From Candidatus Bathyarchaeia archaeon (GTDB lineage Archaea > Thermoproteota > Bathyarchaeia > Bathyarchaeales > Bathycorpusculaceae): a stretch of 64,000 nucleotides of DNA. Each line of letters begins with the position of its first letter. Position 1 is the stretch's first letter. A program made the translations under genes and the position numbers. A model generated the notes under the pieces. It was not told the DNA's origin and ran no database searches. It saw only the letters and a list, made by a program, of their open reading frames with translations. Shown here piece by piece: positions 45,674 through 48,377 of the stretch. The stretch spans positions 1,876,519-1,940,518 of the forward strand of contig CP166960.1 in assembly GCA_041447175.1 (NCBI GenBank). The letters are read 5' to 3'.

Positions 45674-47182
45674 TCACATGCCCATTTTAAGCCGCCGATA
45701 AGTGGTATAATCCACGTACTCCACAAACGGATTATCAGTTAAATATTTAGTGGTGATTTTCTGTCGGCACCTCTTGTCCAGCAACTGACTGGTTGTTCGG
45801 AAAAGGTAAGCATCACTACCCGCACCCGAACCATAACTCACCAACAATACACGCTCATCAGGCTTAGCTAAATCTAAAACCGCAGCCAAACCCACTGGAG
45901 AGCAACCGCTGTAGGTGTTGCCAAAATTGTTAACCTGCAAAGAACACTCATACTGCTCCTCTTTAAAGCCCAAATCACGCGCGACCTTAACAGGAAATGC
46001 AGGGTTAGGCTGATGAGGAACAAAATAATCCACATCTTGAGGCTTCAAACCAAACCTATCCATCAGCTTATTGGCGGCTTTTTTAACGTGCTTGAAATAT
46101 GCAGGGTCACCTGTGAATCTGCCTCCATGCATAGGGTAAGGTTCACCGTCGCGCCTCCAGAAGTCAGGCGTATCTGAAGTGACCGAGCACCAGCCTTCAA
46201 TTTCGGCCACCACGTCATGCTTGCCGAAAATAAAGGCAGCTCCACCATAACCCACGAACAGGTCCAACTCGCCGCCGGGGCAGCCTCGAGGGGCAGCTTG
46301 GCTGTTGTCAGCGCCGATAACCATGGTGTTTTTCATGCCTGAGTTAGGGTAATTTACAAGAGCCGCAGCGTCTTTGAACATGCTAGTGGCGGCTTTGCAG
46401 GCAAATTCAGTATCCACGGCATCCACGGCTTGCACATCGTCGTCTTCTTGGCCCAGCTTTAGAACCTGAGCCACTTTGGACGCGATAGGTTTGACCGCGT
46501 AAGGGTTGGATTCAGAACCCACATAGACTTTTCCTACAGATGCACTGTCTATGCCTGAATGAATAAGCGCAATTTTACCTGCTTCTACAGCTGCCGTGAT
46601 GGAGTCTTCATCCATAAAGGGCACAGCGCGTTCGATGCCACGTTCTTTTATTCTGAAACGTGACGTGTAAACGCCATAGCCAACTATGCCGGGCAAGGAA
46701 TACTCTTTGTTTTGCCCTGAAACCACGTACTCCTGATGGGGGTAGTATTCATCTGCTAAAGTGAACGACAACGAAATTGTTGGAACGACATCACTTCGGT
46801 TTACGCTGTAGCGTCGCCTAAATCGGGGAACAACTTCCCTACCCTCTAACGCGGGGAGGTCAACGGTTTCACCCGGCTTAATGACCTGGTCCGTTAATCT
46901 GCCGGGGACACGGATTTTTCCGTTGTGAAAAGATATGATGCCGTAAACATAGCTTTCCAGTTTGGTAAATTTGTTTGTGGGTTCTGTGACCAGCGTGCAA
47001 AGTTCCAGTTTGCCTTTGTCGTAGAAGAGGTCAACAGAATCCATTTTCATGTAGCTTTTGCGACCACAGTTGCTGCAGTAATCGCGCACTTCAAAGTATT
47101 CCTTACCGCAGATTTGGCATCGGCTGGCTTTCAACCTGTCGCCAAGGTAGGAGACTCTGCGTTCAATTGGTTCACTGCTCAT
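45674..47182 (-). CDS. Hydroxymethylglutaryl-CoA synthase with fused N-terminal DUF35 (Zn-ribbon/OB) domain
   Basis: A 502-residue fusion. Residues 1-160 are a DUF35 domain: a zinc ribbon with Cys22, Cys25, Cys36 and Cys39, then an OB-fold (YVYGIISFHNGKIRVPGRL). From about 165 (GIVGYGVYTSRFRIK) it is archaeal HMG-CoA synthase with its catalytic Glu224 (GSES), Cys262 (EFACKA) and His390 (VPHQPN), and GNTYSGCSPVGLAA near the end. It condenses acetyl-CoA with acetoacetyl-CoA for mevalonate and thus archaeal lipids. In most archaea DUF35 is a separate protein bridging this enzyme and a thiolase. The thiolase-like gene ends one base upstream. An AGGGAGG Shine-Dalgarno precedes the ATG. Confidence 0.9.
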   Translation of the reverse strand: MSSEPIERRVSYLGDRLKASRCQICGKEYFEVRDYCSNCGRKSYMKMDSVDLFYDKGKLELCTLVTEPTNKFTKLESYVYGIISFHNGKIRVPGRLTDQVIKPGETVDLPALEGREVVPRFRRRYSVNRSDVVPTISLSFTLADEYYPHQEYVVSGQNKEYSLPGIVGYGVYTSRFRIKERGIERAVPFMDEDSITAAVEAGKIALIHSGIDSASVGKVYVGSESNPYAVKPIASKVAQVLKLGQEDDDVQAVDAVDTEFACKAATSMFKDAAALVNYPNSGMKNTMVIGADNSQAAPRGCPGGELDLFVGYGGAAFIFGKHDVVAEIEGWCSVTSDTPDFWRRDGEPYPMHGGRFTGDPAYFKHVKKAANKLMDRFGLKPQDVDYFVPHQPNPAFPVKVARDLGFKEEQYECSLQVNNFGNTYSGCSPVGLAAVLDLAKPDERVLLVSYGSGAGSDAYLFRTTSQLLDKRCRQKITTKYLTDNPFVEYVDYTTYRRLKMGM

Positions 47183-47183
47183 T

Positions 47184-48377
47184 TTAGTTCCTCCCTAAGA
47201 TGCAAACAAAGCTTTTGGTGCCAAACCCTTCACACTCGTTTGTTAAACCAAACCGAGGTGAGGCATCAGCGACTTGTCGGGGTCCAGCTTCACCACGTAG
47301 CTGCCTGAAAATCTCGTACAGTTGAGCCCCGCCAGTAGCTCCGAGGGGGTTGCCGTCTGCTTTTAAGCCGCCATTGAGGTTTATGAAAAGTTTTTTACCG
47401 TTAACATCCAAGTAACCCTGATAGTCTTTGTAGCTATCATAGATGTATTTCCAAGCGGTTCCATAGTCGCAGAAACCCAAATCTTCTAGCGAAACCATCT
47501 CCATCATTGTGGATTGGTCATTAAGCTCCAAAACCCCAATATCCTTTTGATTTACACCAGCCATCTTTATGGCGTTTGCCATTGCAAGTTTAGTTGCAAC
47601 AAAATGATCCAAATCATCCCTAGCTGAAAAGTTCAGGTAGTCAGTTGCGGATGCGGCACCTAAAACACAAACAGGGTTATCCGTTAGCGTTTTGGCTTTG
47701 TCGGCGCTGGTTAAAATCAACGCAGAAGCCCCATCAGATATGGGTGCAAAATCGTAGAGCCCCATTGATTTGCGTGCCGCTTTCCGCGCGTTCAAGACTT
47801 GCTCCACAGTTATTTTTCTTCGATACTGAGCGTACTCGTTTTTAGTAGCGTTCGCATGGTTTTTCACGGATATCTGCGCGAGGGCGATGTTGAGTTTTTC
47901 AAGGTTTTCGCCCGTGATGCCGTGTTTCTTGATGTACGCTCGAAGCATTAACTCATGATTGGATTCAGGGGTGCATCCTGCGAAGTAGCTCCAAGGGTCT
48001 TCAAGAAGCATAAGGTCGTCGCGGATTTTATCCCAGCGGTCGGTCATTTTTTCGATGCCTCCCACCAGTACGGTGTCATAGATGCCTGCACGGATGGAGT
48101 TGCATGCAGTTAGGAGGGCGGCGCTGACAGAGCGGGTAATTTCCATGGGCACGTGAAGTTCAGTGAGTTCAGAGAGGAAGCCTTCTTCCAAACCGAGCTT
48201 GTTTGTTATGGGCAAAAAGCAGTCAGACATGTAGCAGGCTTGAAGGTCTTTGCGTTCTATGCCGCATTCATGCGACGCTGTAAGCCATGCTTCTTCGATT
48301 AGTTTTTCGGGTTCTTTCCCATAATGTTCGCCGAACTTGGTTCGACCTACAGCCACTATAGCTGGACAATTTTGCAT
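47184..48377 (-). CDS. Thiolase-family protein lacking the usual catalytic residues
   Basis: A 397-residue protein with the thiolase fold: AIVAVGRTKFGEHYGK, GIYDTVLVGGIEKMTDR, APISDGASALIL, NLNGGLKADGNPLGATGGAQ. The family's active-site residues are replaced. The nucleophile Cys position (in CASGSAAL of relatives) reads TRSVSAAL (Thr81). The His of the NxHxAF motif reads ELNDQS (Asn286). The GHPxGAT His reads GNPLGAT (Asn343), and the C-terminal GGTG loop reads ECEGFGT. By eye this is a catalytically dead or re-purposed thiolase. It sits directly upstream of the DUF35-HMGS fusion, where relatives channel acetoacetyl-CoA, so a structural role in that complex is likely. Confidence 0.8.
   Translation of the reverse strand: MQNCPAIVAVGRTKFGEHYGKEPEKLIEEAWLTASHECGIERKDLQACYMSDCFLPITNKLGLEEGFLSELTELHVPMEITRSVSAALLTACNSIRAGIYDTVLVGGIEKMTDRWDKIRDDLMLLEDPWSYFAGCTPESNHELMLRAYIKKHGITGENLEKLNIALAQISVKNHANATKNEYAQYRRKITVEQVLNARKAARKSMGLYDFAPISDGASALILTSADKAKTLTDNPVCVLGAASATDYLNFSARDDLDHFVATKLAMANAIKMAGVNQKDIGVLELNDQSTMMEMVSLEDLGFCDYGTAWKYIYDSYKDYQGYLDVNGKKLFINLNGGLKADGNPLGATGGAQLYEIFRQLRGEAGPRQVADASPRFGLTNECEGFGTKSFVCILGRN

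Follow-up and report, generated by a model that had tools for sequence, protein, structure and literature searches.

A thiolase-fold protein lacking its catalytic residues, encoded beside a DUF35–HMG-CoA synthase fusion in Bathyarchaeia

Described complexes and the locus in the window

For the channelling of a thermodynamically uphill step into a downhill one, the model case is the archaeal thiolase/HMG-CoA synthase complex. In the solved structure (6ESQ), the thiolase, the DUF35 protein and the HMG-CoA synthase all contribute residues to the interface that binds CoA, and the thiolase is active, with Cys85 (PMC6392133). PhlABC of Pseudomonas has the same architecture with one of its two catalytic subunits dead but required (PMC6392133, PMC2954200): the complex does not function without the HMG-CoA synthase-like PhlA, although this subunit lacks the key Cys and Glu (PMC6392133), and the thiolase-like PhlC acts via Cys88. 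Among other thiolase-fold proteins, the aldolases Ltp2 and Sal carry a Tyr in place of the thiolase HDCF His (PMC12329534), and in type II polyketide synthases a dead ketosynthase partner, the chain length factor, is obligate to the active ketosynthase (PMC12664062).

Here we analyse a window, that is, a stretch of 64,000 nucleotides from a Candidatus Bathyarchaeia archaeon (contig CP166960.1, positions 1,876,519 to 1,940,518), in which a thiolase-like protein of 397 aa (hereafter the pseudothiolase) is encoded directly upstream of an HMG-CoA synthase. The genes and the synthase features are as follows, in window positions:

48377 to 47184, minus strand: thiolase-like gene, 397 aa (open reading frame and translation)
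47190..47195, minus strand: GGGAGG, ribosome-binding-site-like, within the 3′ end of the pseudothiolase gene and 7 nt ahead of the fusion ATG (read from the sequence)
47182 to 45674, minus strand: DUF35–HMG-CoA synthase fusion, 502 aa, 1 bp downstream of the pseudothiolase (PRK04262, 371 bits, cut-off 244)
46718..47182, minus strand: DUF35 part of the fusion, residues 1 to ~155, with zinc-ribbon Cys 22, 25, 36 and 39
46511..46513, minus strand: Glu224 of the HMG-CoA synthase, catalytic acid/base position (conserved in 78/78)
46397..46399, minus strand: Cys262 of the HMG-CoA synthase, nucleophile (conserved in 78/78)
46013..46015, minus strand: His390 of the HMG-CoA synthase (conserved in 78/78)

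The preliminary description of this DNA had reported a thiolase without catalytic residues that keeps the thiolase fold, an observation that is confirmed and that proves broader than first described; the points beyond it are a fourth lost residue, a deletion, the fusion of DUF35 to the synthase, an intact sister clade that polarises the change, and a wide recurrence of the loss. The fold itself is evident from Thiolase_N (44 bits) and Thiolase_C_1 (109 bits), each above its Pfam cut-off, from 6ESQ_A as the best solved relative by sequence (E 1.1e-47), and from an AlphaFold2 model (mean pLDDT 82, pTM 0.87) whose best PDB fold match is again 6ESQ_A, the thiolase of the archaeal thiolase/HMG-CoA synthase complex (E 2.6e-31, TM 0.81). 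The protein shares this fold and both its N- and C-terminal domains with SCP2-type archaeal acetoacetyl-CoA thiolases, and it lacks their nucleophile Cys (EAACASG), the His and Cys of HDCF, and the GHP His. For the fusion, the best PDB fold match of the model is 6ESQ_J, the HMG-CoA synthase chain of the same complex, and we count it in favour of a complex partner that the two models best match the two 6ESQ subunits. Within the DUF35 part the four zinc-ribbon Cys are kept in 78/78, the zf-ChsH2 score (22.2 bits) lies just below the Pfam cut-off of 23.2, and identity to the separate DUF35 next to the intact thiolase of the same genome is 32%.

The tight coupling to an apparently active HMG-CoA synthase, also claimed at the outset, is borne out by the 1 bp gap and the intact Glu-Cys-His triad, and it extends across the family. 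Eighty of the 121 class genomes carry the pseudothiolase, and the fusion lies beside it in 80/80 (in one genome this spans two contigs, and one fusion is truncated at the end of its contig). In related loci not cut by a contig end the pseudothiolase is directly upstream of the fusion with an overlap or gap of −11 to +3 bp; only two loci lack the synthase, in both of which the contig ends at the pseudothiolase gene, and a few have an incomplete synthase frame. The window locus thus has the same three protein parts as the 6ESQ complex, which is the best sequence and fold match for its thiolase-like subunit and the best fold match for its synthase; it differs in that the 6ESQ thiolase is active, whereas here the thiolase-like protein has lost all four catalytic residues and the synthase has DUF35 fused at its N terminus. 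With linked genes and an intact synthase triad and no competent thiolase subunit, the locus is therefore classed as a variant of the thiolase/DUF35/HMG-CoA synthase complex, not as a standard member.

HMG-CoA reductase is present in the same genome, and the fused synthase gives the single full-length HMG-CoA synthase match there, so that the pathway is needed. A second HMG-CoA synthase that would free the fused one for other work was considered and rejected, as none was found in this genome. Elsewhere, two outgroup genomes (G043 and G003) hold a second gene of HMG-CoA synthase type besides the fused one, and one Bathyarchaeota chromosome (CP070835.1) carries two family copies (L020 and L070), with only a short part of a synthase frame beside L020, due either to a broken frame or to an assembly problem.

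Catalytic positions, pocket and selection

Active-site positions were assigned by alignment to the thiolases of Methanothermococcus thermolithotrophicus (6ESQ) and Pyrococcus furiosus (7YVY), and to the intact thiolase encoded elsewhere in this genome. The positions concerned are:

48129..48137, minus strand: codons of Thr81-Arg82-Ser83, the former nucleophile elbow, with ~4 residues (AACA with the Cys) deleted relative to the intact sister clade
48102..48104, minus strand: Cys92, a helix Cys also found in intact sister thiolases, not the nucleophile
47511..47522, minus strand: Asn286-Asp287-Gln288-Ser289, replacing His-Asp-Cys-Phe (286 is Tyr in 75/88 family members)
47346..47357, minus strand: Asp341-Gly-Asn343-Pro, replacing (K/D)-Gly-His-Pro
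47214..47237, minus strand: ExEGFGTK (381–388), replacing the NxGGxGAT loop; Glu381, Glu383 and Lys388 nearly invariant

Thr81, Asn286 and Asn343 had been proposed to stand at the sites of the nucleophile Cys and the two catalytic His. Residues 81, 286 and 343 are indeed Thr, Asn and Asn, with Asn286 aligned to the HDCF (NxHxAF) His and Asn343 to the GHP His. Where the intact thiolase of the same genome reads EAACASSG, EVHDCF and KGHPVG, the pseudothiolase reads TR----SVS, ELNDQS and DGNPLG. The fourth catalytic residue is gone as well, since the HDCF Cys is Gln288, which is invariant in the family. Judged by alignment, all four catalytic positions of an SCP2-type archaeal thiolase are lost in the 397-aa protein.

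The role given to Thr81 stands only in part: the Cys is absent, but Thr81 is more likely a neighbour of the lost Cys than its substitute. In the nucleophile region the simplest alignment, of TEAACASGGSAL in the intact sister clade with TR----SVSAAL in the pseudothiolase, implies a 4-residue deletion of AACA including the Cys, under which Thr81 is the Thr three residues ahead of the lost Cys and not a direct substitute. An ungapped count from the downstream helix instead sets Thr81 at the Cys position, so that the register is uncertain by a few residues, and no alignment yields a Cys there. The AlphaFold2 model has a strand at 78–81 and a helix at 84–96, and residues 81–83 thus sit in the nucleophile elbow. 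Placement of Cys92 in the active site, on which the first claim might have fallen, is excluded, and Cys92 is likewise rejected as a substitute nucleophile, because it aligns with the second Cys of the intact sister thiolases (TEAACASGGSALYNAC), which carry this helix Cys in addition to the catalytic Cys.

The altered positions are strongly conserved. In one scan of GTDB contigs the family was found in 80 Bathyarchaeota species-level contigs at 59–87% identity, and across 88 family sequences Gln288, Ser289 and Asn343 are invariant, Arg82, Glu138, His141, Glu142, Asp287, Asp341, Glu381, Glu383 and Lys388 are nearly so, and at position 286 Tyr occurs in 75 sequences, Asn in 12 and Cys in 1. The nucleophile Cys is missing, by deletion or replacement, throughout the family. 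Intact thiolases have 58 columns with a conservation of at least 95%; in the family 40 of these are the same, 8 have become fixed for a different residue, 8 vary and 2 have been deleted, and the eight fixed replacements, often charged residues, are concentrated at the former active-site motifs. Against its nearest relative the pseudothiolase has a dN/dS of ~0.05 (0.068/1.32), similar to that of an intact thiolase pair (0.076/1.65). By this measure the pseudothiolase is under strong purifying selection, and has therefore been retained for some function.

Descent of the loss and the remaining thiolases

Five outgroup operons contain the same gene pair, including the DUF35–HMG-CoA synthase fusion, together with a fully intact thiolase; three belong to family f15 of the class (L118–L120) and two lie outside the class (L139 and L140). 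In a tree from which the active-site columns had been left out, these loci fall in the sister clade of the pseudothiolase family, and the family, the sister clade and their union each have 100% bootstrap support. Because this sister clade combines the same operon with an intact thiolase, the simplest reading is that thiolase catalysis was lost in the pseudothiolase lineage from an active ancestor in the same operon. The family also reaches beyond the class, into six other genomes of the phylum (L141–L146). Inside the intact sister clade, one thiolase (L121:5900-7084) has its own loss of the Cys and of the HDCF Cys with both His kept, possibly an intermediate state.

Thiolases that lack the Cys and are linked to an HMG-CoA synthase have arisen several times in related archaea. 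Across Thermoproteota triplets of HMG-CoA synthase, thiolase and DUF35, 23 of the 34 sampled are without the nucleophile Cys, and these comprise several independent types (L123–L125, L132, L135, L136, L153, L156, L157, L159, L161–L164, L169–L171, L173–L178). At the nucleophile position they carry Ser (7), Asp (6), Gly (3), Glu (3), Gln (2) or Ala (2); the HDCF Cys is absent from all 23, and the GHP His has become Asn in 13. On the tree of HMG-CoA synthase-linked thiolases the state of the Cys has changed at least six times, some long branches leaving the exact number unsure. The synthase triad is kept in every operon with a Cys-less linked thiolase (34 sampled triplets). The mirror case also exists: in L122:4494-7169 and L134:2936-5582 the thiolase is intact and the HMG-CoA synthase-like partner lacks Glu, Cys and His, as in PhlABC, and the L134 partner has a DUF35-like part fused at its C terminus. 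No sampled operon has lost the active sites of both thiolase and synthase.

Sulfolobus tokodaii ST0096 (4YZO) has the archaeal SCP2-type thiolase fold without a nucleophile Cys (TSGSGG) and HDMAT for HDCF, but keeps the HD His and the GHP His; it resembles another Cys-less type (L203) and is 28% identical to the pseudothiolase by fold alignment. Some Bathyarchaeia families (L128–L130, L133, L148–L150) carry a different type of HMG-CoA synthase with an ACNAG/ACNSG motif, mostly in frames of 508–559 aa, with no thiolase or DUF35 detected alongside. A separate thiolase-like family (L221, L227, L228, L272), mostly in adjacent gene pairs, has degenerate active sites reading GGxTG, YDPF and GNPI.

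The preliminary description had suggested looking for a second, complete thiolase as a source of acetoacetyl-CoA, and two Pfam searches found exactly one other thiolase in the genome, which is complete and could fill this role. A DUF35 gene starts at its stop codon (locus L085:9013-10724), and its orthologues keep all four catalytic residues in 30/30 of the relatives read. Another thiolase is present in 77/80 family genomes, the exceptions (G014, G073 and G120) being drafts 91–97% complete. Genomes with Cys-less linked thiolases likewise have, where tested, an intact thiolase elsewhere, with one closed-genome exception, G160, which lies outside the family: in this 99% complete genome no Cys-containing thiolase was detected and the linked thiolase is Cys-less. 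The thiolases found in G160 are L170 (QSDY, linked) and L203 (SHMH, unlinked, the type resembling ST0096), neither with the Cys; acetoacetyl-CoA may there come from elsewhere, or a Cys-less thiolase may be active. In another genome (G121), L165:3792-5315 has an HMG-CoA synthase and a DUF35-like part in one frame with no linked thiolase, and an intact thiolase (L237) lies elsewhere.

Proposed role, alternatives and significance

We think it probable that the pseudothiolase belongs to the archaeal thiolase/DUF35/HMG-CoA synthase complex as a thiolase subunit without catalytic activity, one that the synthase needs for the start of membrane lipid synthesis. It probably still forms the thiolase dimer core and docks the DUF35–HMG-CoA synthase fusion, and it would supply its share of the CoA site between all three proteins, such that the synthase can hold acyl-CoA. 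The supply of acetoacetyl-CoA would fall to the other thiolase of the genome, which has a DUF35 partner gene to itself. With the two steps uncoupled in this manner, the HMG-CoA synthase would be the sole chemistry in the complex, and thiolysis of its substrate there would be prevented. The new pocket residues, in turn, might plug the old pocket and keep it closed, bind CoA, or carry out a new reaction.

The closest precedent is PhlABC, in which a dead catalytic subunit is required within the same architecture; at the window locus the role is deduced from the genes, and the arrangement is the mirror image, since in PhlABC it is the HMG-CoA synthase-like PhlA that is dead and the thiolase-like PhlC that acts, whereas here the thiolase appears dead and the synthase is intact. 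The ketosynthase and chain length factor offer a further parallel of a dead thiolase-fold subunit as the obligate partner of an active one, although they form a heterodimer of ketosynthases, whereas the pair described here consists of two different enzymes with DUF35 as the proposed bridge. Three points weigh against a scaffold. Its weak point is that 11 pocket residues are near-invariant across the 88 sequences (Arg82, Glu138, His141, Glu142, Asp287, Gln288, Ser289, Asn343, Glu381, Glu383 and Lys388), which a passive scaffold would not obviously need; the three draft family genomes without another thiolase and the closed G160 without any Cys thiolase also count against it. Our survey of the open literature, with subscription journals mostly outside its reach, turned up no account of an inactive thiolase in an archaeal HMG-CoA synthase operon; on this weak evidence the inactive thiolase in such an operon appears new, the thiolase/DUF35/HMG-CoA synthase complex itself being known.

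The preliminary description had left the choice between a scaffold of a substrate-channelling complex and a new chemistry; the former is best supported by the comparisons above, and we keep the latter as a rival in view of the new, near-invariant polar set in the pocket. Specifically, it is possible, if doubtful, that the pocket has been rebuilt as a new Cys-independent active site acting on a CoA thioester, for example in an aldol or retro-aldol reaction as in Ltp2 and Sal. Like the pseudothiolase, Ltp2 (with ChsH2, a DUF35 protein) and Sal (with Shy, also DUF35) combine a thiolase fold, a lost nucleophile and a DUF35 partner, and the Tyr at 286 in most family members, absent from the 397-aa protein, has its equivalents in Tyr294 of Ltp2 (YDHF) and Tyr302 of Sal (YDCY), where the same His has been replaced; the fixed and often charged replacements clustered at the former active-site motifs point in the same direction. 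However, Tyr286 has given way to Asn or Cys, with at least six changes of state in the family tree including one in the window lineage, and therefore cannot be an indispensable base; of the residues that act as second catalytic acid, Tyr344 in Ltp2 and Cys304 in Sal, the latter is replaced by Gln288 in the family; Asn343 stands at the GHP His; and the sole linked gene is an HMG-CoA synthase, which does not suggest a steroid or other aldol substrate. We have accordingly not adopted an Ltp2/Sal-type aldolase identity from the YD motif of the relatives, a motif whose Tyr base is repeatedly lost and is Asn in the protein itself. A related reading, which we hold to be unlikely, takes the conserved polar residues themselves (Arg82, Glu138, His141, Glu142, Asp287, Gln288, Asn343, Glu381, Glu383 and Lys388) as the Cys-free site of a new CoA-dependent enzyme that would feed or edit the substrate or product of the adjoining synthase, and that would represent a different entry into isoprenoid synthesis in Bathyarchaeia.

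To a regulator or gate of the synthase, with acetoacetyl-CoA, CoA or HMG-CoA as an effector in the old pocket, we give little credence. Conservation of pocket residues in the absence of thiolase chemistry would fit such a site, as would the change of the GHP His to Asn both in the family and in 13 of the 23 other Cys-less triplets, which might preserve a hydrogen bond to a ligand; the ligand binding is nevertheless putative, and by sequence an effector site is hard to tell from a scaffold. Continued acetoacetyl-CoA thiolase activity through other residues is very improbable: the closed G160, with its different Cys-less linked thiolase, suggests that some Cys-less members elsewhere might be active, but here nothing is left of the nucleophile, the two His or the second Cys, intact relatives have Cys92 besides their nucleophile, and an intact thiolase is present in the same genome. 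Finally, a sequencing error, pseudogene or assembly artefact is rejected as next to impossible, given the open frame, the low dN/dS and the same changes in ~80 independent assemblies.

Together with PhlABC as the mirror image, the Cys-less family and the sister operon with its intact thiolase make a set in which the change from catalytic to structural subunit could be tested. If these thiolases are dead, it would be an error in many Thermoproteota to annotate their genes as acetyl-CoA acetyltransferase, the enzyme with which archaeal lipid synthesis begins. If the thiolase of the complex is dead in whole orders of archaea, channelling would not be the general function of the complex, and the shared CoA site and the scaffold may be what selection keeps.
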